Source: a virus. Taken from it: DNA of 31,179 bases. The first letter of the stretch is position 1, and every line of letters starts with the position of its first letter. This document shows, piece after piece, positions 9,833-28,766 of this stretch. Where the stretch lies: positions 1-31,179 of IMG/VR virus record IMGVR_UViG_3300036852_000375. One strand, 5' to 3'. The position numbers were made by a program, and so were the translations under genes. The notes under the pieces are model-generated. The model had not been told where the DNA came from. It ran no database searches and saw only the letters and a program-made list of their open reading frames with translations.

Positions 9833-12800
9833 CTATCCTGTGACCATCCGGCGAGCTCGCTCGAGCAGGCCGGGCTGAGGTGTCAGGAGTCCGGGCGAGC
9901 TCGGCTGACGCATGATGTCCTCGGGCGTCAGATTCCGACGCTGCTCGCGGCTCGCACCACCCAGGGTGGACGGGGCGATGGTGCCGCGGTCGATGCCCTG
10001 GAGCATCCGATCCTGCCTGGCGAAGTCGTCAGCCGGGCCCTGGGGGCCCTGCGCCAGCCGCATCGCTCGAGCGATCCCGGCCCCACCGTTCACCTGGAGG
10101 CCATTCTGGGGCGCCGCGAAGGGGATCTCTGGCATCGCCGGAGTGACCTTCGGCAACACGTCCATGTTCCGGTAGTTCTCCGGCTCCTTGCCTCCGAAGT
10201 CCGGTGGCCGGGCCGGCATCGAGTCGAGCGGCTGGTCGGCCGCCGGACCCCTGTCGCCCCTGAAGCGAGGCTTGCGGGCCATCACCGCGGCGGGACTCCC
10301 CGGGATGGTGTCGCCCTCCGGCGTGATCCCCTGCGGCTGCTGCTGTTTCTTGAAGCGGTTGGCCATGGCCACCACCGCCGGGTTCTTCATTGGGTCCTTG
10401 AACTGCATGTCCTGGGCCTTCTGAAGCATCCCGCGGAGCGCGGATGGTGGCAGGTTCAGGACGCCCTTCCCTACCATGATCGGCGCCTCGCCCGCGTCGA
10501 GAGATTGCTCCACCTCATCCGGGGTGAAGGCCAGCCGCCGGACCATGGGGTCGTTGCCGTCGAGGTCCTGGGACGGGACGCCCTCCTTGAGGTGGACGTA
10601 CCAGCCCTTCTCCTTCGGGGCCGCGCTGACCGGCGCCTCCTGGGAGGACCGCTCCTGCTGGCGCTGCATCTTGAGGGGATCCTCCGCGTCCGGCGGCGAG
10701 TTCTCGGACCGCTTGCCCGCCGCCACTGTGGCGTCCTCGACGGTGTCGTAGCCGCGGTCGCCCGGAAGCGGGCGGCCTGGGATGGAGGTGTCGCGGCCGT
10801 AGGTGTTCCGCCACTTCCCGCGGCGGTCCTGCGTGGTCTCGGACTCCTCGTGGTGCGCCTGGCGGATCCCGCCTACTGCGGCCGCCTCATCCGGCATGGT
10901 GGGATCCTCGCCTCGCTCGAGCGGGCCGGGGCCCATCTTCGGCATCTCGAGCTTCCTTCGGTCACCGCCTAGGCTGAGATCCCCGCGCTGCCGCATATCG
11001 TCGAGGAAGGACTCCGACTCCTGCTCGGTGTCGGCCTTGTCGGCTGGGATGACCACCTCACCCTTGTGGACGAGGTATTCCCCGGTCTTCGGCACCACGC
11101 CGCCCTTCTTGAAACCACCACCTGGGACCGGTGCGGTCGCGTCGGGCGGCGTGGTCGATGCTCCCGTGGTGTTGGTGGGCGCGGTCGCCGCGGTGCCAGC
11201 CGGGACGGCGCTCGGGGCGATGTCGCCAGCTGGGCCGGCGCCCGGGGTCGCGCCCGCTTCCTGGCCAGAGGCTACGGGCTGGGTGAGGAGCGCGCTCAAC
11301 TGCCCGGCAATCGGAGACCCCTGATACCCGGCCAGCGCCTTGCCGAGCTCGCTGGTCTTGTCCTGCGGGAGATAGAGCTCGGCCCCACCAGTGGGGCTGG
11401 CCTTGGCGTAGAGACCCTCGCCGATCTGCTGGTAGCCCGATTCCGGCGCGGAGAACTGGCTCGACTCCTCCGGCTTGTAGGGCACGAAGGTCAGGGTGTC
11501 CTTGCCGGACTGAATCGCTGCGCGCTCCCCCTTCTGGAGGGTCGAGAGGAACGCGAGCGGATCGAAGGCGACAGAACCAGCCGCATCGGCGGCGGCACCG
11601 ACTGGGCCTGGCAGTGGTTGCCCGCCCGCCCAGAAGTTCGGGGCCGGAGGCGGCGTCGGCGGCGTTGTGGGCGCGATCCAGTCTCCGGCTTTCCCGGCGT
11701 AGGGCACGCCATGCGCGGCCTCGTAGTTGGCGAGGTCCTGCTCGGTGAGTTGCCTGCCACCCGTGGCGCCCGGAGCAACCGCTCCCACTGTCAGGCCGGC
11801 CAGGGCCGCCGCACCATCCCCGTGCGCGGCGTCGTAGTTGGCGATGTCCTGCTCGGTCAGCCGCGGCGCCGTCCAGTCCCGGATGAACTCCGGGGTCCGC
11901 AGGTTGACCCACGGATCGAAGTGCTGATTGATGAGGCCCTTGATCTCCGGATCCGTCACGCCCATGCGAGCCATGGCCGCCCAGAGCGGGCCTCCATACA
12001 TCGCGGTGTAGAGCCCGGAGGCGTGCGTGTCCTTGTCCTTGGCCAACATCGACGAGCCGAGGGCGATGCCGAAGAGCGCGTCCACCTGCTGATCGACGGT
12101 CTGCGGCGGGGTCGTGCGGTAATCGGCCCCGGACAGGCTCGACATGGGGCCGCTCTTCCCTGCGAAGGTGCCGTATAGTGCGTTGGCTTCCTTGGCGAAT
12201 TGCGCCCGGCGCTCTGGAGGCAGCTGAGCGAAGATGTCGTCCGGAGTGCCGCCCGCGTCCACCTCGCTCTGCGAAGCCCAGTCCCCCGTCACCGGCAGCT
12301 GGCCGATCTGCTCGTATGTGAGCCCGCGGTTCATCAGTTCCTTGGCGATATTGGCCAGCCCGGCCTTCATGTCGTCGGCTTGCTTCTGCCAGGCCGCGAC
12401 GGTCGGGAAGTCGCCCTTGCCGGCGGTCCCTTCCCGTCCATACATCCCCGTGAGGGTGTCGCCCGCCCGTACCGGCCCGCCTGGGCCCTGGATGGTGGCG
12501 AAGTAGGCCTTCATGTTGTTGGCCCCGGTGGTGAGCGCCATGGCCAGGTCGGCGGTGTTCGCCTTGTCCAACGGGCCGAGCGCGGCCAGGTCCTTCGCGG
12601 CGGCAGCCATGCTCGAGGAGGCGTTGCTGTAGAGGTTCCCGGCGATCGGGTTGTTGACGTAACCCTCCCGCATGATCCGGCGGGCCTCATTCTGGGACAA
12701 GGTGCCGACGATCCCGATGATGACCGGGGCGGCGACGGCCAGCCAGGGCGCGGCCGCGGCGAGGGCTCCAGATATGGCACCCGTGCCGGTGCCGGCAGCG

Positions 12801-15343: not shown

Positions 15344-15654
15344 CCACCGTTGCCATCGTGGCCGTGCGGCTCTGGGTTGTCGCAGCACGGCTCCGTCTGG
15401 AGAAGTGCCTCACGGAGATCTTGCCACGGCGGCGCTGGCGGCGCTGGCGCGTTCGGATCCGGAGGAGCGGCCGCCGGGTCCTGCGGGAGCTCGGGCTCCT
15501 GCTCCACCTTGCCGGGGACTTCGGGCACCTGCTCCGCAGCCTCGATCACCGAGTCACGGTCGTACACGTAACGTAGGGCGGCGACGAGCTCCTTCCGGGC
15601 GGCCTCGGCCCGGCGGTCCTGCGCGGCGACGTCGAACTGGTCTTCGATGCTCAT
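15340..15654 (-). CDS. Hypothetical Pro-rich protein
   Basis: The 104-aa protein starts at ATG 15654, overlapping the preceding lipoprotein stop as ATGA. An N-terminal amphipathic helix (FDVAAQDRRAEAARKELVAA) is followed by a Pro/Glu/Ala-rich stretch and a Cys/His-rich tail (CCDNPEPHGHDG). The tail may bind metal. No family is recognised. Confidence 0.6.
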   Translation of the reverse strand: MSIEDQFDVAAQDRRAEAARKELVAALRYVYDRDSVIEAAEQVPEVPGKVEQEPELPQDPAAAPPDPNAPAPPAPPWQDLREALLQTEPCCDNPEPHGHDGNGG

Positions 15655-16043
15655 GCAGACTCTCCATTCAGGAGCGGGCGCCACTCGCACGCGGGGCCGC
15701 TCGGTTCAGTGAGAAGCTGGTTGTCACGGTTGAAGAACCGGCTGTTCACAAGGACCGGGACGCCCTGGTCCTGTGGGTTGGGGTCCACCAGGATCAGATC
15801 CTTCTCGGCGAAGACCATCACGATGACCCGCTCGCCCCTCGAGAGCACGACGCTGGTGATCGGCTGCGGCGCCCCGTCAGTCTTCTCGGCCATGCCGTGC
15901 GTGATGTCGCGCAGCTGCCAGCCCGTCAGGTTCTCGTAGCCGGCCGGGGCACAACGGAGGGCGCTCGAGAAGGAGGGGGCAGGGGCGCCCGTGGCGCACC
16001 CAGCGATCCCCAGGAGCAAGGCGGCGATCAGGATGTTCTTCAT
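15651..16043 (-). CDS. Lipoprotein (130 aa)
   Basis: The protein starts MKNILIAALLLGIAGCATGA: a short signal with a lipobox-like GIAGC ending at Cys16. It should be exported, lipid-modified and anchored to a membrane. The mature part is mixed alpha/beta with strands such as SVVLSRGERVIVMVF and a C-terminal Pro/Cys/Trp element. ATG 16043 is chosen since it overlaps the previous stop as ATGA and starts at the signal; the longer upstream frame is only read-through. It lies among other lipoproteins and a spanin-like pair, so a lysis or exclusion role is likely but unproven. Confidence 0.7.
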   Translation of the reverse strand: MKNILIAALLLGIAGCATGAPAPSFSSALRCAPAGYENLTGWQLRDITHGMAEKTDGAPQPITSVVLSRGERVIVMVFAEKDLILVDPNPQDQGVPVLVNSRFFNRDNQLLTEPSGPACEWRPLLNGESA

Positions 16044-19264: not shown

Positions 19265-19419
19265 GGTGTGACTAGGGCGCAGGCCGCCCGGAAGAGGGTG
19301 ACGCGGCCCCACACGTGCTCGACCAGGAGTGGCGCGACGATCGGGATCAATCCAAACCAGAAGATGATCCAGGTCGGCTTCACCACTATCGGTCGGTTCC
19401 AGCCGCGGGCGACTTTCAT
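19261..19419 (-). CDS. Small membrane protein (52 aa)
   Basis: ATG 19419 gives a protein with a basic head (MKVARGWNRP) and a strong membrane segment (WIIFWFGLIPIVAPLLVEHV). The longer frame above it looks non-coding. Its stop overlaps the metallopeptidase start as GTGA, so the two are coupled. No family is recognised. Confidence 0.55.
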   Translation of the reverse strand: MKVARGWNRPIVVKPTWIIFWFGLIPIVAPLLVEHVWGRVTLFRAACALVTP

Positions 19420-19636: not shown

Positions 19637-19818
19637 CCCTTGACCCAGACCCGCCCGCACGCGCACTCGTGGTCGGTGGTGTGGAGGATCGTCTTCCTAC
19701 AGCGGTGGGTCACCAGGGCTAGGCGGTGCCCCCGGAGGTTGACCTCGACCGGCTCCTGCCAGCCGTTGTAGCAGACCACCGGCTCGGCGTCGGCGCTCCC
19801 GCCCGCCTCCTCTACCAT
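19633..19818 (-). CDS. Small Cys-rich protein whose start lies in a palindrome
   Basis: ATG 19818 gives 61 aa; a TTG at 19842 would add eight residues. The ATG lies at the centre of an 18-bp perfect palindrome, so the mRNA could fold with the start codon in a four-base loop between seven-base arms. The protein has VEVNLRGHRLALVTHRCRK and a C-terminal HECACG, suggesting a metal site. It is coupled to the next gene by ATGA. Family unknown. Confidence 0.55.
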   Translation of the reverse strand: MVEEAGGSADAEPVVCYNGWQEPVEVNLRGHRLALVTHRCRKTILHTTDHECACGRVWVKG

Positions 19819-19826
19819 GGTAGAGG
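19809..19826. repeat. Palindrome CCTCTACCATGGTAGAGG, copy 1
   Basis: This is the longest of three copies of the palindrome, 18 bp and perfect. It covers the likely start codon of the downstream small gene. The other copies are at 22773-22786 and 26415-26430. Confidence 0.8.
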
Positions 19827-20564: not shown

Positions 20565-21269
20565 TCAGTCTCCGTGGGTCTCGTGGGTTTGAGGGATGTC
20601 GGTGGGGATCAGGCGCTTGATGAGGTAGCGACCGCACTGGCACATCTTGTGGCCGGCGGTGACGACGGTGATGCACGCGGCCTCGATCCTGGAGCGGACG
20701 GCGCCGGGCATGTAGACGACGGTGTTCTCGCCCGGGCCGTGGGCCAGCACGCTGCCGGCGGCCTGGATCAGGACGGTGTCGTGAGTGGTGCGTTGGGGAG
20801 GAGTTGAACCTCCATGGGGGGTTACCCCAACGGATTTACAGTCCGCTGCCCTGAGCCGATTCGGGTCATCCAACGCCCGTTCCTTCCGCTTCTCCTCAAG
20901 CCAGGCGGCGGCCATGCTCGGTGACGAGACGTGGAGCAGGCCCTTGAGCTCGTCGCGCTCGCGGTTCACCAGGCGCAGCTGCGCCACCGTCCGGACGTGC
21001 GCCTTCTGGAGGGCGTCGAGCTCGAGGCCCTGGGCCAGCGCCTTCCGCGTGGCCTTGGCCGTGGTGCCCTTCAGGGCCCGTATGTCGTTGTCCCACTTCT
21101 CGCGCAGAACCCGGACGAACTCGGCCCCGTTCGGCTTGCCCAGTTCCTCCCAGTTGATGAGGCAGAGTCCCTTGAGGAGGTCGAGGTAGGCGCGGGCCGC
21201 AGCGAGCGTGGAGTTGACGCGATGAGTGAGGCCCAACCGAAGGGTCTCCCGGGGATCCCGGGGCAGCAT
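20565..21269 (-). CDS. Hypothetical protein; open frame runs through a tRNA gene
   Basis: ATG 21269 is coupled by TGATG to the preceding gene. Residues 1-130 form a helical protein (VNSTLAAARAYLDLLKGL, then a long charged coil ending in WLEEKRKERALDD). The frame then passes straight through the tRNA-Tyr (20786-20876) and continues for 74 residues that also look coding (AACITVVTAGHKMCQCGRYL with CxC). Either this is one gene with a tRNA inside it, or two genes whose boundary is the tRNA, with no stop before it. Residues 131-160 are only tRNA sequence read as protein. Confidence 0.5.
   Translation of the reverse strand: MLPRDPRETLRLGLTHRVNSTLAAARAYLDLLKGLCLINWEELGKPNGAEFVRVLREKWDNDIRALKGTTAKATRKALAQGLELDALQKAHVRTVAQLRLVNRERDELKGLLHVSSPSMAAAWLEEKRKERALDDPNRLRAADCKSVGVTPHGGSTPPQRTTHDTVLIQAAGSVLAHGPGENTVVYMPGAVRSRIEAACITVVTAGHKMCQCGRYLIKRLIPTDIPQTHETHGD
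20786..20876 (-). tRNA. tRNA-Tyr (anticodon GTA)
   Basis: On the minus strand the acceptor GCGTTGG pairs with CCAACGC, followed by discriminator A and an encoded CCA. The D arm is CCC...GGG; the anticodon arm is GCGGA-CTGTAAA-TCCGT with GTA; a long class II variable arm (GGGG-TAA-CCCC) follows, and the T arm is GGAGG-TTCAACT-CCTCC. All arms are intact, so it should be functional. It would read TAC/TAT codons. It lies on the same strand as, and inside, a 234-codon open frame. Confidence 0.95.
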
Positions 21270-21816: not shown

Positions 21817-22017
21817 CTACTCCACCTCGACTCGGATGTCGCCGATGCTGACCAGGTCGGCGAAGACGGCGCTGCCGATCTGGGAGCGCAGCTGGTCGGC
21901 GTCGTAGCGGCCGGGCCAGAAGCCGACGGCCGGCGCCGTGCGCCCGCGCAGCACGGAGAGTTCCCGGTTCAGGACCGCGACCGCGCCAGCGCCCGGACCC
22001 TCGCCTGCCTGTCCCAT
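21817..22017 (-). CDS. Small hypothetical protein, first gene of an operon
   Basis: The 66-aa protein starts at ATG 22017, exactly 7 nt after a TAGGAT -10 box, so its message is probably leaderless. The sequence is Gly/Ala-rich at the N-terminus and ends in a helix and a strand (YDADQLRSQIGSAVF, then IGDIRVEVE). No family is recognised. It leads the operon that contains the homing endonuclease. Confidence 0.65.
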   Translation of the reverse strand: MGQAGEGPGAGAVAVLNRELSVLRGRTAPAVGFWPGRYDADQLRSQIGSAVFADLVSIGDIRVEVE

Positions 22018-22024
22018 GGCGCCG

Positions 22025-22054
22025 ATCCTACGCGGTTGATAGACACCGTGTCAA
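22025..22054 (-). promoter_or_regulatory. Promoter with TTGAC-N5-GTCAA-type operator
   Basis: -35 TTGACA (22054-22049), an 18-nt spacer, and -10 TAGGAT (22030-22025) lie before ATG 22017, with a 7-nt gap. The palindrome 22040-22054 has one mismatch (TAGAC-ACCGT-GTCAA) and a perfect GACAC-C-GTGTC core inside. Confidence 0.7.
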
Positions 22055-22059
22055 TCCTT

Positions 22060-22509
22060 TCAGTTGAGCTCGTCCGACTCGTGGTCGTCCAGCGGGTCGC
22101 GCGGCTGGGTCCCGAGACGCTTCCGGGCGGCCCGGCCCTTCGCCTTGGAGCGGGCGCCAGCCTTCTGCCGCTTGCGGCGCATCTCGTCGATCCGGTCTTG
22201 GAAGGCCTTGCCTCCGATGGTCTCGAGGACGCGACGACGGAAGGTGGTGGCGAGGATGTCTTCCTTCAGGACGAGCTCCCCGGTGGCGGGATCTGGCCGG
22301 TAGATCTTCACCTTCGGCGTGTGCTTGCCGACCTCGTTGCCCAGGTCCATGTCGAGGAGCGTCCCGACAGTGGCCATGGGTTTCTTCTTCGGCCGTTTCT
22401 CAAGGCGGAACTCCCGCATGATGTCGGCGGCGAGCTCGCCCGTGACGGACGCCTCGATCGGCGGGGCTTCGACGAAGAGGACGGTATCTACGGCGGTGGA
22501 GTATCTCAT
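22060..22509 (-). CDS. Hypothetical basic protein (149 aa)
   Basis: The protein starts at ATG 22509, overlapping the previous stop as ATGA. The N-terminal half has strands (AVDTVLFVEAPPIEASVTGE) and a helix with MREFRLEKRPKKK; the C-terminal third is strongly basic (DRIDEMRRKRQKAGARSKAK) and ends acidic. Binding of DNA or RNA is likely from charge, but no family is recognised. It ends just before the promoter of the next operon. Confidence 0.65.
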   Translation of the reverse strand: MRYSTAVDTVLFVEAPPIEASVTGELAADIMREFRLEKRPKKKPMATVGTLLDMDLGNEVGKHTPKVKIYRPDPATGELVLKEDILATTFRRRVLETIGGKAFQDRIDEMRRKRQKAGARSKAKGRAARKRLGTQPRDPLDDHESDELN

Positions 22510-22715
22510 GGCTCGACCTCGAGGGTTCTGGGCGCGATCGCCCGGGTTGGGACGTGGCGGTTGGGGCAGCGGGGCCGGCGGCGATACCGGCCCGGCTTGC
22601 GTGGTTCGCTCGCGTGCCAGGCAAGGCGCCCGGCTTTATCCACCGCGCAGAGGCGCTCACAGGCGGGACAGATCCCTTCCCTGCGGAACGGCCAGCGACA
22701 CCCAGCGGTGGGCAT
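22506..22715 (-). CDS. Small zinc-finger protein, first gene of an operon
   Basis: The 69-aa protein has GICPACERLCAVDKAGRLAW and later RCPNRHV: a CxxC and a later Cys/His that could form a zinc site. It is rich in Arg and Pro and has no hydrophobic core. ATG 22715 lies 7 nt after TAGGAT, so translation is probably leaderless. It is coupled to the 149-aa gene by ATGA. Confidence 0.65.
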   Translation of the reverse strand: MPTAGCRWPFRREGICPACERLCAVDKAGRLAWHASEPRKPGRYRRRPRCPNRHVPTRAIAPRTLEVEP

Positions 22716-22722
22716 GGATCGA

Positions 22723-22752
22723 ATCCTATGCTTCGGGTTGACGTGCTGTCAA
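22723..22752 (-). promoter_or_regulatory. Promoter with perfect TTGAC-N5-GTCAA operator
   Basis: -35 TTGACA (22752-22747), 18-nt spacer, -10 TAGGAT (22728-22723), 7 nt to ATG 22715. The perfect palindrome TTGAC-GTGCT-GTCAA covers 22738-22752. Confidence 0.75.
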
Positions 22753-22772
22753 CTACGAATTTCGACGAGATG

Positions 22773-22786
22773 TCTACCATGGTAGA
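22773..22786. repeat. Palindrome TCTACCATGGTAGA, copy 2
   Basis: A 14-bp perfect palindrome lies in the divergent intergenic region, 20 bp upstream of the minus-strand promoter. It shares GCGCG directly after it with copy 3. Confidence 0.8.
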
Positions 22787-23010
22787 GCGCGCCGTGTTTG
22801 GGTGTTTTTACGCTGACTTCCCTCCATAAATTACCGACCTTGGGAAAACCAGTACCCGGCTATTGGCACATCGCACCACGAGTGATGGCGTTGAAAATCG
22901 CTGCACTACTACCGACGGTAGCGCGGGCGGTGGAGACACACTTGGCCCCACCTTTGCGATATGTCGGGCAAATGTGTTCAAAACTGAACACCGAAGGGGA
23001 ACCCCGAGCG
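22787..23010. promoter_or_regulatory. Divergent control region with several inverted repeats
   Basis: This stretch is richer in A and T than its surroundings and has no convincing gene. It holds CTACC-GAC-GGTAG (22909-22921), similar to the three-copy palindrome, and TGTTCA-AAAC-TGAACA (22975-22990), a perfect operator-like repeat just before the plus-strand gene at 23011. It lies between divergent units, where a phage switch is commonly placed. A clear plus-strand -35/-10 pair was not found. Confidence 0.5.
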
Positions 23011-23445
23011 ATGGACGAGCATGGGCAGGCAATGGTGCGGCGAACCGAAACGGCTTCGAGTCTCGAGCGTGATCCACGGACGCGCTCGGGGATCGGGGCC
23101 GTGGTCGAGGCGGTGACCGGCGGGCTCAAGGGGGAGCTCTCCGCCACCGACCTCGGCCAGTTGGTTCGGGCGGTCTGGACGGCGGGGCGGCGGGCGGCGA
23201 CTCCCCTGACCCGGGCGGGCGAGATCCCCGCCCAGCGGCCGCCGACCACTCCGGCGGGGATCGTGGCGTCGTGGACCTTGCCTATCCAAGGGGATGCGCG
23301 GGTCGTGCTCGAGGACCGGCGGGCCTGGTGTACGGCCATCCGGCTCCTGGTCGGCTCGCCCATCGCGGGCCAGATCCTCTCGACGGACCTGGTCCAAGAG
23401 CTCCAGGCGCACCTCCGCACCGGCCGGCCACGGCGGACCCCGTGA
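23011..23445 (+). CDS. Hypothetical protein of the plus-strand pair (144 aa)
   Basis: The frame is open further upstream, but G/C-rich third positions and likely coding start at ATG 23011. The protein has an Arg-rich N-terminal segment, a helix with GELSATDLGQLVRAVWTAGR, a Pro-rich linker and a C-terminal helical part (AWCTAIRLLVGSPIAGQIL). No HTH is evident and no family is recognised. It is transcribed away from the control region and coupled to the next gene by GTGA. Confidence 0.6.
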   Translation: MDEHGQAMVRRTETASSLERDPRTRSGIGAVVEAVTGGLKGELSATDLGQLVRAVWTAGRRAATPLTRAGEIPAQRPPTTPAGIVASWTLPIQGDARVVLEDRRAWCTAIRLLVGSPIAGQILSTDLVQELQAHLRTGRPRRTP

Positions 23446-23711
23446 GGGTCCTGGACGAGGCCGAGATTGCCAGCGTCATCAAGGGGCGCTGCCCCGAGTA
23501 CCCGGAGGACACCGCGATCGGGCTGTGGCTGTCGATCGTGGTGGCCTTCAGCATCCGGCTCTACCCGGAGGACCCGGCGGGGCGGATCGCCTGGGCCGGC
23601 ACCTGTGGCTGGAACATCGGGATCGCCCGTGGCCCGACTCCGATCGGTGAGGTCCTCCTGCGGTTGAGTCTCGGGGGGACCGAAGGCCCGGCGGATGTGA
23701 TCGGCCGCTGA
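23442..23711 (+). CDS. Hypothetical protein (89 aa), coupled to the previous gene
   Basis: GTG 23442 overlaps the previous stop as GTGA. The protein has a charged N-terminal helix (DEAEIASVIKGRCPEYPEDT), a hydrophobic segment (AIGLWLSIVVAFSIRLY) that could be a membrane span or buried helix, and a Gly-rich C-terminus. No family is recognised. The hairpin at 23714-23753 follows its stop. Confidence 0.6.
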   Translation: MRVLDEAEIASVIKGRCPEYPEDTAIGLWLSIVVAFSIRLYPEDPAGRIAWAGTCGWNIGIARGPTPIGEVLLRLSLGGTEGPADVIGR

Positions 23712-23713
23712 AC

Positions 23714-23753
23714 GGAGGGGAGACCCGGAGCAGGCCGGGCCCCCCTCCCCTCC
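23714..23753. terminator. GC-rich hairpin between convergent genes
   Basis: Outer arms GGAGGGG (23714-23720) and CCCCTCC (23747-23753) enclose an inner CCGG/CCGG stem. It sits 3 nt after a plus-strand stop and 19 nt beyond the end of a minus-strand gene. No long T run is present, so terminator activity is likely but not certain. Confidence 0.5.
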
Positions 23754-23771
23754 CTACCTAGCCTTCCTCTA

Positions 23772-23885
23772 TCACCATTTCCTGACGTCCGCGGCTCGCC
23801 CGGCGAGGCCGAAGACCAGCAAGACCCCGCCGATCCCGACTGCGGCGACAAGGACGATGAGACCCAACCAACCCCAATACGTCAT
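23772..23885 (-). CDS. Single-pass membrane miniprotein (37 aa)
   Basis: ATG 23885 has an excellent ribosome-binding site (GGAGGTGG about 5 nt upstream). The sequence is a long hydrophobic helix (YWGWLGLIVLVAAVGIGGVL plus LVFGL) with a basic C-terminal tail (RAADVRKW). It follows the 262-aa gene by 15 nt and is probably cotranscribed. A holin-like or superinfection-exclusion role is possible; sequence alone does not decide. Confidence 0.65.
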   Translation of the reverse strand: MTYWGWLGLIVLVAAVGIGGVLLVFGLAGRAADVRKW

Positions 23886-23900
23886 ATCCGCCACCTCCAC

Positions 23901-24689
23901 CTAACTGGCCTTGGCGGTAAGGGCGAGCGCCTTCTCTTCCAGCTGGTGCTTCAGCTTGTTCCGCGCCGCGGGGGCCATCACTTCCTCCATGAGCGGATGC
24001 GCCAGCACAAGGCGGGCGAGCTCCACGATGGCCGTGACATCCTTGGTCACCTGCACCCGCTTCAGGCTCCCGTCTGCCTGTTTGATCGTCACCCGCAGGT
24101 GCTCGAGGGTCTGGATCAGGGCCTCCCCGAGCTTCTCCGGGATCTCGCGGACCCGGGCCGACTCCGGTGTGACGGCCGCCCGCCAGGCCAGGTACACCTG
24201 GCGGAAGCTCGCCACGTTCGCCTCGAGGGCCATGACCGGGGAATGGAACTCCTTCCCGCCGATCGTGACCGGGTTCTTGGTGTCCACCTTCAACTCCCCG
24301 GTCCGCCACCGCCGGAGCTCCCAGCGGGCCAGGGCCACGTAGCGGGCGGCCGGACCGGTCCCCCCCGAGGACTTGTCAGCCTTCCGGGCGTAGCCGTGGG
24401 CCCCGGGCAGGTTGGCGGAGATGATCTCGGCGATCTTGCGGCGCCGGATCCCGAGGCCGACGCACCGGGCGGCGGTCTGGATGGCCCGGGCATAGCCGAT
24501 AGTGCGGGTCTCCTGGTCCCGGACCCCCCGGACCACCAGGACCAGCTGCTCGAGGGCCTCCTCGGCCTTGGCTGGATCGGTTCCGGTCCGGATGTCATCC
24601 TCGGTGACCTTGACCGTGCCGGAGGACCAGAGACTCCGCTCGCTGCGCGTGATCTTCTTTTTGCGTGCAGGCTTCGCTTTCCTCGTCAT
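23901..24689 (-). CDS. Hypothetical basic helical protein (262 aa)
   Basis: The N-terminus is very basic (RKAKPARKKKITRSER). The body is helical: DPAKAEEALEQLVLVVRGV, then AARCVGLGIRRRKIAEIIS, which could be a helix-turn-helix, a central part with Trp/Arg-rich ALARWELRRWRTGELK, and a long C-terminal helix. No family is recognised. The gene faces away from the integrase across a 261-bp control region. That position and the basic helical nature fit a DNA-binding regulator or replication accessory factor, but this is inference. Confidence 0.7.
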   Translation of the reverse strand: MTRKAKPARKKKITRSERSLWSSGTVKVTEDDIRTGTDPAKAEEALEQLVLVVRGVRDQETRTIGYARAIQTAARCVGLGIRRRKIAEIISANLPGAHGYARKADKSSGGTGPAARYVALARWELRRWRTGELKVDTKNPVTIGGKEFHSPVMALEANVASFRQVYLAWRAAVTPESARVREIPEKLGEALIQTLEHLRVTIKQADGSLKRVQVTKDVTAIVELARLVLAHPLMEEVMAPAARNKLKHQLEEKALALTAKAS

Positions 24690-24950
24690 TCAGCGCCTCC
24701 CTTGGCTTGGTGGGGTGGATGAAGTGCGGCGGATTTCCTGCGTCGGCGTGCATAGACTGCGCCGATGTTTTCGGCCTGACATCGCCTGATTTTTCATGCG
24801 GTTAGAAACGCTCGGTTTCTCTGACCGGGACATTCTACCGTGTCGTTTCTACCACAGAGCGTGTCAGTCTTACATCACCACTCAACACCCGGCGAGGAGA
24901 TAAGGTGTGGGCATGGGACCTGCACAGATCGTCCTGGTATGGAGGGCCCC
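24690..24950. promoter_or_regulatory. Divergent integrase control region, candidate attP
   Basis: No gene is evident in these 261 bp. They contain CGATGT-N10-ACATCG (24763-24784), AGAAAC-GCTCG-GTTTCT (24804-24820), and a direct repeat TTCTACC at 24833-24839 and 24847-24853. Such repeats next to an integrase gene suggest arm-type sites, a core attP, or operators for both directions. The TCTACC repeats equal one arm of the CTCTACCATGGTAGAG palindrome. No consensus promoter could be assigned with confidence. Confidence 0.4.
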
Positions 24951-25130
24951 ATGGCAGACCGAGAACCTCTCCGTAACCGTCCGAATGTATTACTCTTTAT
25001 TGGTGTTTACCGATCGAAGAAGGCCCCACAGAACCGCCCCGCGAGCGTCATCTCCCTGGTCGAGCGTCTGACGAAGCGTGTCAGGCCAGCGGCCAAGGCG
25101 GCGCGGCCGGCCACCAGCGAGGAGGCGTAG
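24951..25130 (+). CDS. Small basic protein upstream of the integrase
   Basis: ATG 24951 follows GGAGGG at normal distance. The 59-aa protein has NVLLFIGVYRSKKAPQNRP, a short helix (ASVISLVERLTKRV) and a basic, Ala-rich C-terminus. Third-position G/C is low in the first third and high afterwards. It ends 2 nt before the integrase, so the two are one unit. A recombination directionality factor (excisionase) is possible by size and position, but no family is recognised. Confidence 0.5.
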   Translation: MADREPLRNRPNVLLFIGVYRSKKAPQNRPASVISLVERLTKRVRPAAKAARPATSEEA

Positions 25131-25132
25131 GC

Positions 25133-26164
25133 ATGGGCCGTGCACTGGTGCCGCGCCAGAGCCCTGACGCCATGCGCCTGACCCAACTCAAGAGCGACTG
25201 CCTGGCCCACCTGGCGGCCCTGGGCCGGGCGAAGGGCACGCTCGAGAGCTACGACACCACCTTCTCGCAGTTCATCGCCTACGTGACCACGGTACTTCGC
25301 CTGACGGACGATGCGGCCCACTTCAACCAGGAGCGGCTGATCGGCTTCATGGCCCACCTCCACCAGTGCGGGGTCAGCCCCAACACCATCAAGGCCCGGC
25401 TGTCCGCCATGGGGGCCTTCGCCCGCTACGGGGCCATCCGGAAGGACCATCGCCGCCAGCCGGTCGTCCCGGTCAACCCCCTGGTGGGGCTCGAGCGCCC
25501 CAAGGGCCGGAAGGCGCCCGAGAAGTATCTGCTCCCGGCGGAGCTCCGGGCCTACCTCGAGGTGGCACGACCGGCGCGGGTGTCGATCGTCCGGGATGTC
25601 CTGGTCGATACCGGGCTCCGGGTGTCTGAGCTCTGCGCGGCCAACGTGGGCGGGATCCGCCGGCTCGGCGCGGTGACCGCGCTCGCGGTGGTGGTCAAGG
25701 GCGGCCACTCCGACGAGGTCCCCCTGTCCCCAGCTGTCGCTGCGGGGCTCCGGGACTGGCTCGCCCGCCGGGAGAAGGGGCGGGGGGTGGAGCTCCTCCC
25801 CGAAGAGCCCCTCTTCATCGACCAGCATGGGCTGCGCTACAACCGGACGGGGATGGCCGCGATGCTGGCCCGGATCGGGTGGGCCGCGGGGATCCGGCGC
25901 TTCATCGTGACCCCCCACGTGGTGCGGCACACCCTCGAGCTCATCCGCCGCCGGGCCAAGATCGACCCCGCAGTGCGGAGCCGGCTGCTCACGCATACCT
26001 CTTACACTTCGCTGACTTCCTACCAGCACGTCATGCCGGAGGAGCTCGACCAGGCCCGCGCCGCCCAGATCTCCGAACTGCAACGGTATCTGGGGTTATG
26101 CCACGAAATTATGCCACCCGCTCCAGAGGGTGACCCGCAACCCCCTGATTCTCCAGCACAGTAG
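25133..26164 (+). CDS. int: Tyrosine recombinase (phage integrase)
   Basis: The 343-aa protein has an N-terminal SAM-like core-binding domain (LAALGRAKGTLESYDTTFSQ to about residue 105) and a C-terminal catalytic domain with the full set of active-site residues: DTGLRVSEL (Arg163), VVVKGGHSDEVPL (Lys189), TPHVVRHT (His262, Arg265), LLTHTS (His288) and TSYQHV with Tyr297 as nucleophile. It joins phage DNA to host DNA at att sites through a covalent 3'-phosphotyrosine. The length and motifs suit the XerC/D-like and phage integrase group. GAGGAGG precedes the ATG. It lies on the plus strand while almost everything else is minus, with a divergent control region upstream. Confidence 0.9.
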   Translation: MGRALVPRQSPDAMRLTQLKSDCLAHLAALGRAKGTLESYDTTFSQFIAYVTTVLRLTDDAAHFNQERLIGFMAHLHQCGVSPNTIKARLSAMGAFARYGAIRKDHRRQPVVPVNPLVGLERPKGRKAPEKYLLPAELRAYLEVARPARVSIVRDVLVDTGLRVSELCAANVGGIRRLGAVTALAVVVKGGHSDEVPLSPAVAAGLRDWLARREKGRGVELLPEEPLFIDQHGLRYNRTGMAAMLARIGWAAGIRRFIVTPHVVRHTLELIRRRAKIDPAVRSRLLTHTSYTSLTSYQHVMPEELDQARAAQISELQRYLGLCHEIMPPAPEGDPQPPDSPAQ

Positions 26165-26177
26165 CATTCCAGGTCTT

Positions 26178-26456
26178 ATGCAACGGCCGAGTGAGACGCC
26201 CATGATTCCGCCTACTTACGCACCAGAATGGATGCTACTTCACCCCGCGTTACAGGCCGTGGCAGTATCCACTCGTCAGGTGCGGAGGCATCGGGTCCAT
26301 GCGGTCGGGGAGGGCGGCCCGAAGTGGACGCGGTGTCATCGGCTGGCCGCCGGCCTGCTGCTCACGGGCGACCCGGCCCTGGTCACTTGCCGGATGTGTC
26401 GGGCCCTGGCCCGCCTCTACCATGGTAGAGCGCGGCGGTCAGAGCTCGAGCCATAG
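26178..26456 (+). CDS. Small zinc-type protein after the integrase
   Basis: Possible starts are ATG 26178 (chosen), ATG 26202 and GTG 26130. The C-terminal half has RCHRLAAGLLLTGDPALVTC then RMC: a Cys pair, a DPxxVTCxxC element and a His that fit a small zinc-binding fold I know from phage miniproteins. The palindrome at 26415-26430 lies inside its last codons. The gene converges with the minus-strand gene ending at 26439, overlapping by 18 nt. Confidence 0.55.
   Translation: MQRPSETPMIPPTYAPEWMLLHPALQAVAVSTRQVRRHRVHAVGEGGPKWTRCHRLAAGLLLTGDPALVTCRMCRALARLYHGRARRSELEP
26415..26430. repeat. Palindrome CTCTACCATGGTAGAG, copy 3
   Basis: A 16-bp perfect palindrome lies near the 3' end of the small zinc-type gene and just past the convergent minus-strand stop. 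It is followed by GCGCGGCGG, like copy 2 (GCGCGCCG). Confidence 0.8.
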
Positions 26457-26648
26457 CTGGCCGCCCGGCGGGATCCGGCGCTGCGGCATCGGCCGGCGCT
26501 CCCAGACCCCCAGAGGCGGAAGGTTGTGGATCCCCGGGTAGCGATCGGAGTCGAGCTCGCGGTGCTGGCGCGGGCGGAAGGTGACGAGGGTGGTGCGCCC
26601 GTCCCGCTCGACGAGCTCGAGGCGGTCAACCGGCCGGAACGTGCCCAT
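26439..26648 (-). CDS. Small basic hypothetical protein
   Basis: ATG 26648 gives 69 aa; the longer frame above is only the shadow of the HTH gene. The protein has strands (DRLELVERDGRTTLVTFRPR) and a Pro/Arg/Trp-rich C-terminus (VWERRPMPQRRIPPGGQLWL). It overlaps the HTH gene by 23 nt and is the last gene of its operon. Function unknown. Confidence 0.6.
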   Translation of the reverse strand: MGTFRPVDRLELVERDGRTTLVTFRPRQHRELDSDRYPGIHNLPPLGVWERRPMPQRRIPPGGQLWLEL

Positions 26649-26865
26649 GTCGGAGCCCGACCCGGCGCTCGATTCCGTTCCAGCCGTGGTGATAGGTGGT
26701 GACGAAGGTGATGCGGTGGGCTCTGGCGGCCCGCTCAACCGTCTCCCAGTGGACTCCGAGGAACTGAGAGGCGCGGGCGATCGTGTAGCCCTGAGCGGCC
26801 ATGGCGCGGAGCTCGACGGCGTCGAGGGTCTCGGCGATGCGGCACTTTATGAGGCCGAACCTCAC
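26626..26865 (-). CDS. Small helix-turn-helix protein
   Basis: GTG 26865 overlaps the stop of a tiny upstream frame as GTGA. The 79-aa protein has a classic HTH at residues about 21-48 (AMAAQGYTIARASQFLGVHW, then ETVERAARAH): a helix, a turn around Gly-Tyr-Thr, and a recognition helix. It is like the DNA-binding part of MerR/Xis-type or resolvase-type proteins. As a compact regulator under a palindromic promoter it may control that promoter or act as an excision factor; this is inference. Confidence 0.7.
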   Translation of the reverse strand: MRFGLIKCRIAETLDAVELRAMAAQGYTIARASQFLGVHWETVERAARAHRITFVTTYHHGWNGIERRVGLRHGHVPAG

Positions 26866-26918
26866 AGCAGGACCCCCTGGCGGAGCCGACGGATGGCGTC
26901 CTGGTGGGCCGGATCCAT
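26862..26918 (-). CDS. 18-codon leader frame
   Basis: ATG 26918 lies 7 nt after the -10 TAGCAT, so the message would begin at or near this ATG. The tiny peptide (MDPAHQDAIRRLRQGVLL) ends in a GTGA overlap with the HTH gene. It may exist mainly to couple ribosomes from a leaderless start to the HTH gene. Confidence 0.5.
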   Translation of the reverse strand: MDPAHQDAIRRLRQGVLL

Positions 26919-26925
26919 GGGCCCT

Positions 26926-26955
26926 ATGCTACGGGCAATCTTGACACCGCGTCAA
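26926..26955 (-). promoter_or_regulatory. Promoter with perfect TTGAC-N5-GTCAA operator
   Basis: -35 TTGACG (26955-26950), 18-nt spacer, -10 TAGCAT (26931-26926), 7 nt to ATG 26918. Perfect palindrome TTGAC-ACCGC-GTCAA at 26941-26955. Confidence 0.7.
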
Positions 26956-27397: not shown

Positions 27398-27838
27398 TCA
27401 CGCCTTCTCCCCCGGGGCGCGGAGGGCTGCTGCCGGAATCATGTAGTAGCCTTCGGGATCGTCCATGATGTAGCGTCCCGAGTGCTTGATCCGCTCCCGC
27501 TCCCCCTCGACCGCTCGCGCGATGTCTTGCTCGGCCTTGATCGCGGCATGCGCGAGTTGACCGCCGAACGTTTCAGCGGCATCCCCGAGAGCCTCCTCGA
27601 CCGCCCGCGCTTTCATCTCGGCGATGTTCTCTTCGGGCGATAGTCCAGGATGGAAGCCAATTGCGACGAACCGCTTGACCGATTCCTCGTCCTTCTCAGC
27701 AACCGCCCGCGCGATGGCGGCGTCAATCACGGTAGTCAAAATCGGGATCAGCACCTCAGACTTGTACCACTCAGCATCCGGTGGCGGGCATTGCCTGAAG
27801 AACTCCTCAGCCGCCCGCCGGCTGGCCTCCGTCTTCAC
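27398..27838 (-). CDS. Hypothetical protein (146 aa)
   Basis: GTG 27838 overlaps the previous stop as GTGA. The protein is alpha-helical and acidic in the middle (ESVKRFVAIGFHPGLSPEEN, AEMKARAVEEALGDAAETFG) and ends with a Tyr-rich element (GRYIMDDPEGYYMIPAAALR). No family is recognised. It is the second gene of the operon driven by the promoter at 28056-28084. Confidence 0.65.
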   Translation of the reverse strand: MKTEASRRAAEEFFRQCPPPDAEWYKSEVLIPILTTVIDAAIARAVAEKDEESVKRFVAIGFHPGLSPEENIAEMKARAVEEALGDAAETFGGQLAHAAIKAEQDIARAVEGERERIKHSGRYIMDDPEGYYMIPAAALRAPGEKA

Positions 27839-28032
27839 TGGCGCCCGGTCTTCGCGTCTCGCTCTTCCTGCTCGCGGTGCAGGCGCTCGCCGTCGGCCAG
27901 GTGGCGGCACTTCTGGTTGTGAAACCACCCCTTGCACTCCTGGTCACAGCTGACCGCCTTGCCGTCGTCCCCGATGGTCACGGCGTAGTGGCGGTCGCCC
28001 TTGCTCGAGAGAACTTGAACGGTGCGGGCCAT
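27835..28032 (-). CDS. SWIM-like zinc-finger protein
   Basis: The 65-aa protein has CDQECKGWFHNQKCRHLAD at about residues 29-47, a C-x3-C-x8-C-x-H pattern like a SWIM zinc finger (CxCx(n)CxH). SWIM domains bind DNA or protein and occur in phage proteins. A strand pair precedes it (VQVLSSKGDRHYAVTIGDDG). It starts at ATG 28032 with AAGGAGGG upstream, and is coupled to the next gene by GTGA. Confidence 0.7.
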   Translation of the reverse strand: MARTVQVLSSKGDRHYAVTIGDDGKAVSCDQECKGWFHNQKCRHLADGERLHREQEERDAKTGRQ

Positions 28033-28055: not shown

Positions 28056-28084
28056 ATCCTATCCTTCGGTTGACGCTCTGTCAA
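28056..28084 (-). promoter_or_regulatory. Promoter with perfect TTGAC-N5-GTCAA operator
   Basis: -35 TTGACA (28084-28079), 17-nt spacer, -10 TAGGAT (28061-28056). The perfect palindrome TTGAC-GCTCT-GTCAA (28070-28084) lies inside the last codons of the multi-HTH gene, whose stop overlaps the -10. Unlike the other three sites, a 23-nt leader with AAGGAGGG follows before ATG 28032. Confidence 0.7.
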
Positions 28085-28766
28085 CCGTCCTTGGTCTCCC
28101 CCCAGGCAGGCCCTTGGCCCGCTCCCAGGCGAACCCCGGGTGATAGATCCGGTAACGCTGAACCACGCCCGCGGCCCCCCCCTTCCAGCCGGCTCTCCGG
28201 ACTGCCTCTCCGTAGGAGGAGGCGGTCAACAAGGCCTCGCTCAGTTGCCGGCACTGGTCCGAGCAGCGGTGCAGCGTGGCCACCATGATCGTCACGTCCG
28301 GGTGGTGGATCCTCAGCCGCCGACGCAAGTTCTCAGCTTGAATCCCCAGATCCCGGCTGGCCGCTCCGATGTCCACAGGGGCGGGGCGTGAGAGCAGCGA
28401 GCGGCACGTAGCATCGCATCGGTGGGGACGGGGGGGCCACCATGCTCTCTTGGCCAGCGCGGAGATGGCCTGGTGTGAGACGCGGAGCCTGGTGGCGATC
28501 TCATCCATGGTGGCCCCGGTCTTGTGCATCTCGAGTGCCACCGCTGTCTGCTCGGCCCCAAGGCGGCGGCCCAGGCGCCAGGGCTTACTGGGCGGCGGCG
28601 GGGCGATCCCGAACCGCTTGGCCAACCCGAGGAAGCTGGTGATGGAGATACCGAGACGGTCGGCAAGCTCTTGACGTGACGCCCTAGGGTCGGCGGCCAC
28701 AACGTCCGCGATGACCCGTCTCTTGGTCTCCTGCACCGCATCACGAAGGGTTCCGGCCGCGATCAC
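28059..28766 (-). CDS. Multi-helix-turn-helix protein with duplicated Cys modules
   Basis: GTG 28766 overlaps the previous stop as GTGA, giving 235 aa. Residues 28-53 (SRQELADRLGISITSFLGLA) and 84-107 (GATMDEIATRLRVSHQAISA) are two HTH motifs. A repeated module follows: HRCDATCRSLL (Cys117/121) then a helix pair ending RIHHP at 152-156, and HRCSDQCRQLS (Cys168/172) then a helix pair ending RIYHP at 206-210. The repeat looks like an ancient duplication of a C-x3-C plus HTH unit. A multi-site DNA-binding protein is likely, for example a regulator or terminase-like recognition protein. The operator at 28070-28084 lies in its own 3' end. Confidence 0.7.
   Translation of the reverse strand: MIAAGTLRDAVQETKRRVIADVVAADPRASRQELADRLGISITSFLGLAKRFGIAPPPPSKPWRLGRRLGAEQTAVALEMHKTGATMDEIATRLRVSHQAISALAKRAWWPPRPHRCDATCRSLLSRPAPVDIGAASRDLGIQAENLRRRLRIHHPDVTIMVATLHRCSDQCRQLSEALLTASSYGEAVRRAGWKGGAAGVVQRYRIYHPGFAWERAKGLPGGRPRTVDRASTEG

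Follow-up and report, generated by a model that had tools for sequence, protein, structure and literature searches.

The window considered here, the whole stretch of 31,179 nucleotides analysed, is a 31-kb linear viral record with 67.6% G+C that encodes a portal protein, a major head protein and a tyrosine integrase. The minus strand carries most of its genes, including every gene whose promoter is discussed below; the label early, where applied to them, follows from gene position and gene type. The question raised by this locus is how genes are expressed when the ATG stands only a few nucleotides behind the promoter, and whether such promoters share a control element. The best reading, to which a probability of about 0.7 may be given, is that these are sigma-70-type promoters of a phage regulon under a dimeric DNA-binding regulator, with most of the starts leaderless.

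Layout of the four promoters

The features concerned are as follows.

21817-22017, minus strand: 66-aa ORF, predicted leaderless start, ATG at 22015-22017
22025-22030, minus strand: -10 box TAGGAT, 18-nt spacer, 7 nt to the ATG
22040-22054, minus strand: operator 1, imperfect palindrome TTGACACGGTGTCTA, including the -35 box TTGACA (22049-22054)
22506-22715, minus strand: 69-aa ORF, predicted leaderless start
22723-22728, minus strand: -10 box TAGGAT, 18-nt spacer, 7 nt to the ATG
22738-22752, minus strand: operator 2, palindrome TTGACAGCACGTCAA, including the -35 box TTGACA (22747-22752)
25133-26164: tyrosine integrase
26626-26865, minus strand: gene of a 79-aa helix-turn-helix (HTH) protein, HTH_Tnp_ISL3/HTH_23-like, below the curated cut-off, downstream of operator 3
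26862-26918, minus strand: 18-codon ORF MDPAHQDAIRRLRQGVLL, predicted leaderless start
26926-26931, minus strand: -10 box TAGCAT, 18-nt spacer, 7 nt to the ATG
26941-26955, minus strand: operator 3, palindrome TTGACGCGGTGTCAA, including the -35 box TTGACG (26950-26955)
27835-28032, minus strand: 65-aa ORF with Shine-Dalgarno (SD) leader AAGGAGGG, 77% identical to a protein of the related genome G002 (see below)
28056-28061, minus strand: -10 box TAGGAT of the leadered promoter, 17-nt spacer
28070-28084, minus strand: operator 4, palindrome TTGACAGAGCGTCAA, including the -35 box TTGACA (28079-28084)

As the preliminary description had stated, the -10 box ends 7 nt before the ATGs at 22017, 22715 and 26918, and TTGAC(A/G) lies 18 nt further upstream. 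The three sites read TTGACA-18-TAGGAT-CGGCGCC-ATG, TTGACA-18-TAGGAT-TCGATCC-ATG and TTGACG-18-TAGCAT-AGGGCCC-ATG, respectively; the hexamer TAGGAT originally given for all three thus holds at 22017 and 22715, but at 26918 it is TAGCAT. The fourth promoter (28056-28084) was correctly described as leadered, since TTGACA-17-TAGGAT is followed there by a 23-nt leader with AAGGAGGG and the ATG at 28032. Each of the three close ATGs is the first start of its own frame, and the TGA within TTGAC stands in frame with it, 36 nt upstream, so that these ORFs cannot start further upstream. For the pattern TANNNT-N7-ATG, 6 matches were counted in the window where 1.56 are expected, a count reached in 0 of 100 shuffles; the other three matches lack a properly placed -35 box, and two or more of these fall within ORFs.

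The palindrome over the -35 box

The preliminary description noted the leaderless geometry but missed the stronger regularity, a shared palindromic operator: all four -35 boxes of the window form the left arm of the palindrome TTGAC-N5-GTCAA, which is perfect in three copies and has one mismatch in the copy at 22040-22054. A scan for TTGAC-N18/19-TANNNT returned only four sites in the window, all bearing the right arm (counted when at least 4 of its 5 bases match), against an expectation of 0.0 such operator-promoters in 200 simulated sequences of the same dinucleotide content. A loose palindrome count allowing two mismatches is not unusual by itself in the window; the signal is formed by palindromes in register with the promoter, not by the palindrome count alone.

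The same arrangement was found in two other viral genomes, whose genes were called with a simple composition script. The first, IMGVR_UViG_3300027815_000080 (89 kb; G002), was reached by capsid similarity and not by the motif; its capsid protein is 95% identical to that of the window, with which it is syntenic. Its ten operator-promoters, nine of them from the TTGAC-N18/19-TANNNT scan and one an exact palindrome at 19367, are confined to the region from 10 to 37 kb and lie without exception on the gene strand. The second, G005 (L031), was found by motif search, has five operator-promoters and no detected protein in common with the window or G002, and is apparently an unrelated phage. The right arm is present at 4/4 TTGAC-TANNNT sites in the window, 9/12 in G002 and 5/6 in G005, compared to 0.0-0.02 in simulations. 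The same scan found no operator-promoters in the more distant capsid relatives G001, G003 and G004, and both the operator and promoters of this type are absent from Ochrobactrum phage POI1126, a cultivated relative. Viral contigs searched with three early proteins gave no close relatives, the 69-aa protein matching G002 only. A broad motif scan of viral contigs yielded mostly AT-rich single hits, which were taken as chance, and a stricter one gave single-site loci except for L174, L176 and L178 with two sites each. No prophage relative was found in two genome-collection scans (by portal and by capsid alignment). As a separate observation, G003 (L166) contains two promoter matches, at 54568 and 55377, with a different common spacer motif TGAGTTCAC, possibly a different operator in the equivalent position; in one of them an ATG stands 8 nt past the -10 box.

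The two 5-bp half-sites around a 5-bp centre have their midpoints 10 bp apart, about one helical turn, as expected for a dimeric HTH protein. Such a protein, bound to the 15-bp palindrome around the -35 box, would occlude this box from RNA polymerase and would most likely act as a repressor, and by this block one regulator could switch dispersed non-structural genes. The sequences themselves show the motif, its spacing, its recurrence and its conservation; protein binding, repression rather than activation, the transcription start position and the use of these ATGs are inferred. Symmetric operators overlap promoter elements at several loci, as is expected of a temperate-phage repressor regulon. 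The HTH proteins encoded at 26626-26865 and 28059-28763 are candidate regulators. The window and G002 yielded no Peptidase_S24 or HTH_3 domain. A tyrosine integrase is encoded in the window, but no tyrosine or serine recombinase was detected in G002, so that for G002 a lysogeny repressor is uncertain. G002 also encodes a small protein (15592-15870; L149) in which an ANTAR domain, known for RNA binding in antitermination, was recognised (Pfam E 1.9e-12).

The regulator might instead belong to the host (for example, an SOS repressor), the palindrome wiring phage genes into a host response. This is an unlikely alternative, yet one to be taken seriously: the palindrome with its 5-bp centre recurs in G005 despite the absence of detectable common proteins, and an S24-type repressor was not found in the window, G002 or G005. 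However, G005 was found through the motif, and its likeness is therefore in part ascertainment; in addition, the site does not seem to match LexA boxes, and the more distant capsid relatives have no palindrome.

The left arm is invariant (TTGAC), because it doubles as the -35 box, while the right arm differs by single bases. This asymmetry also bears on the suggestion that the palindromes are mainly RNA hairpins, terminators of upstream genes that happen to precede promoters. The arms in G005 do extend to GGGGGCTTGAC-N5-GTCAAGCCCCC, but the window and G002 have short arms that no T-run follows, and changes in the right arm are not compensated in the left, which makes this explanation extremely improbable. 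A bidirectional promoter as the reason for the symmetry was rejected, as the opposite strand carries no -10 match at any of the 19 sites.

Start-codon distance and predicted leaderless initiation

Counted from the first T of TTGAC, the starts at 19 sites of the three phages fall into two classes, 35-38 nt without a ribosome-binding site and 46-71 nt with one. The close starts lie at 37, 37 and 37 nt in the window, at 36, 38, 38, 37, 36 and 37 nt in G002, and at 36 and 35 nt in G005; the far starts, which follow an SD-like sequence, lie at 52 nt in the window, at 57, 65, 65 and 46 nt in G002, and at 71, 68 and 66 nt in G005. Two of the G002 far starts (sites 11149 and 19367, both 65 nt) also have an in-frame ATG at 38 nt, the SD-led ATG standing 27 nt later. 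With these dual-start sites counted, an ATG is present at 35-38 nt in 13/19 sites (p 1.5e-14), a figure that takes in the window sites that raised the question and two pattern-selected G005 sites. G002 alone, found without the motif, gives the cleaner figure of 8/10 sites (p about 7e-10), or 6/10 (p 1.5e-6) without the dual-start sites. The start codon is ATG at 13/13 close starts.

At most of these promoters the -10 box is 5-9 nt from the ATG, so that the transcript should start on the A or no more than about 2 nt away from it and be translated as a leaderless mRNA. At the three window sites, the first T of TANNNT stands 13 nt before the ATG, in keeping with the about 10-12 nt of TANNNT-led leaderless genes, and no SD sequence lies within the predicted transcript if +1 is the ATG. 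At the remaining sites the same operator-promoter is followed by a leader with an SD sequence.

Conservation points in the same direction. The 69-aa protein encoded from 22715 is 72% identical to its G002 counterpart from Met1, while the flanking sequence diverges; the promoters align, with TTGACAGCACGTCAA versus TTGACAGGACGTAAA, a -10 box TAGGAT versus TAAGAT, and the ATG 7 versus 6 nt away. The promoter at 22017 is conserved as well (GATTGACACGGTG in both phages), and in G002 its ATG opens a 160-aa ORF, which looks like an HNH nuclease, in the leaderless slot, the relative of the 66-aa ORF being displaced downstream with an SD-like GGAGGAGGG before its start. The leaderless initiation proposed earlier for the three ATGs is therefore well supported as a prediction, both by the two-peaked distances over 19 sites and by a promoter and ATG conserved before a 72% identical protein.

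The earlier statement that no ribosome-binding site is present is to be qualified: at 22017 and 22715 the TAGGAT box contains an AGGA, 8 nt before the ATG, and the third ATG is preceded by an AGGG; a message initiated upstream would consequently bear a weak SD-like match. Longer messages, read through from same-strand genes upstream and using the AGGA at a workable distance before ATGs 22017 and 22715, are nevertheless an improbable explanation: the AGGA is not kept in the G002 counterparts (TAAGAT), and other leaderless-type sites read TACCAT, TAGAGT and TAAACT at the -10 position. The feature retained across the sites is a TANNNT correctly spaced from the -35 box, and the AGGA was rejected as a conserved SD sequence.

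It was also proposed that such starts could serve a special translation programme, in which initiation factors are bypassed or altered ribosomes used early in infection. Close ATGs at most G002 operator-promoters would suit this idea, and it is generally established that 70S ribosomes can initiate on leaderless messages (PMC9031893). On the other hand, strong SD leaders are found on genes under the same operator and on structural genes, no translation factor was recognised among the window proteins scanned, and a promoter set tight to its gene by economy or history would look identical. Altered ribosomes are not needed for the observation, and a programme of this kind is very unlikely. Should the host come from a clade in which leaderless genes abound, these starts would be nothing out of the ordinary.

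A point against the preferred reading of an operator-controlled regulon with mostly leaderless starts is that the palindrome and the leaderless geometry are separable, since two G002 promoters (82786 and 85583) have a close ATG without the palindrome; the SD-led sites bear the palindrome without needing a close ATG. Spacers are mostly 18 nt at leaderless and 17 nt at SD-led sites (Fisher p 0.005, or 0.02 without G005, in a post hoc comparison). It is tempting, though rather doubtful, to regard these as one operator-promoter cassette in two exchangeable forms, through which one transcriptional switch would free two classes of messages differing in initiation-factor dependence. An identical 12-mer, GGCAAGGAGGCC, is found at G002 positions 10453, 11199 and 19417 (L149), each time as the SD segment downstream of an operator-promoter.

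The site at 26918 is a counterpoint to the best reading, as its ATG opens only 18 codons. The final residues of this ORF (RLRQGVLL) are also those at the end of a G002 DNA methylase (33637-35367), whose gene sits after the operator-promoter at 33600, which suggests, as the simplest reading, a deletion remnant that keeps the start slot and the methylase end. Its stop overlaps the GTG of the HTH gene at 26626-26865, and the short cistron may couple translation to this gene; the 79-aa HTH protein has a partial homologue in G002.

Relation to known systems and additional palindromes

Dispersed phage operators are well known: in L5, with its stoperators, and in phiC31, with its conserved inverted repeats, one repressor acts on many scattered sites, some over promoters. 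The regulon proposed here is similar in this respect. The L5 sites are asymmetric 13-mers, unlike the symmetric operator described here. Identity with L5-type stoperators was rejected: all matches to GGTGGMTGTCAAG had at least 2 mismatches, the promoters carried none, and the sequence was not enriched.

Among leaderless phage genes, the repressor gene cI of lambda is a familiar example. In phage PY54, the cI and cro transcripts were mapped to the AUG by RACE (PMC4488713). These are likewise phage promoters whose transcripts start at the AUG and which adjoin repressor operators; however, they concern switch genes only, whereas here many dispersed genes share one repeated operator over the -35 box and the starts are predicted from sequence. 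A similar leaderless geometry was predicted for promoters PL1 and PR2 of the Cluster O mycobacteriophage Corndog, which are of SigA type with +1 at the first base of the start codon, although the repeated palindrome of Corndog, TGTTCGG-N3-CCGAACA, lies mostly away from promoters and does not overlap the -35 box as here (PMC4351075).

The ESAS/SAS elements of Cluster K mycobacteriophages, presumed binding sites of a regulator (PMC3203893, PMC11373665), resemble the sites described here in being a repeated promoter motif that combines -35 and -10 boxes at 17-18 bp with an inverted repeat before non-structural genes. The inverted repeat of ESAS is longer (15-17 bp) and contains a spacer, and a 13-bp SAS with AGGAG comes after it, while the sites here have no SAS and the leaderless ones no conserved ribosome-binding site. 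Identity with SAS was rejected: no exact 13-bp GGGATAGGAGCCC was found, matches with up to 3 mismatches numbered 21 against 21.05 expected by chance, and none stood at these starts.

Leaderless genes of bacteria are marked by a TANNNT some 12 nt upstream of the start codon (PMC3160421), a position near that of the window sites, although in that study these are host genes of known clades and here they belong to phages. The two dual-start sites of G002 resemble E. coli mRNAs known to have both a 5'-terminal AUG and an SD-led start (PMC4965119). Phages have already been shown to use leaderless transcripts and, separately, repeated operators, so that the arrangement is a new combination of known things; one palindromic operator over the -35 box, repeated across phage non-structural genes that are mostly leaderless, was not found described in a limited search of open-access literature. 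If this is borne out, leaderless initiation would be the usual mode across a phage regulon and not the exception of one repressor gene, and its leadered and leaderless genes under one operator would provide an internal control. TTGAC-N5-GTCAA with a -10 box and an ATG at 35-38 nt is also a compact signature recognisable from sequence, which could mark regulon membership and fix the start codons precisely in uncultured phages, whose small genes are frequently annotated wrongly.

Several other elements were observed in these genomes. ARAGORN called a tRNA-Tyr at 20786-20876 of the window (minus strand), overlapping the predicted ORF 20565-21269; Rfam at gathering threshold gave nothing at this position. 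A palindrome AGAAAC-N5-GTTTCT, a possible separate operator, is located at 24804-24820 between a divergent 262-aa gene (23901-24689, minus strand) and the integrase-side genes (plus strand), with a single copy in the window and none in G002, G003 and G005. The exact 12-bp palindrome CTACCATGGTAG occurs in three copies in the window (19812-19823, 22774-22785 and 26417-26428) and in seven in G002 (11112, 19827, 20483, 20519, 32840, 33623 and 38937), with 0.0 expected and no one-mismatch copies in either. Its identification as a ParB site was unsupported, as G002 has no ParB_N domain. One copy of CTACCATGGTAG overlaps the -10 box of a leaderless-type promoter in G002.
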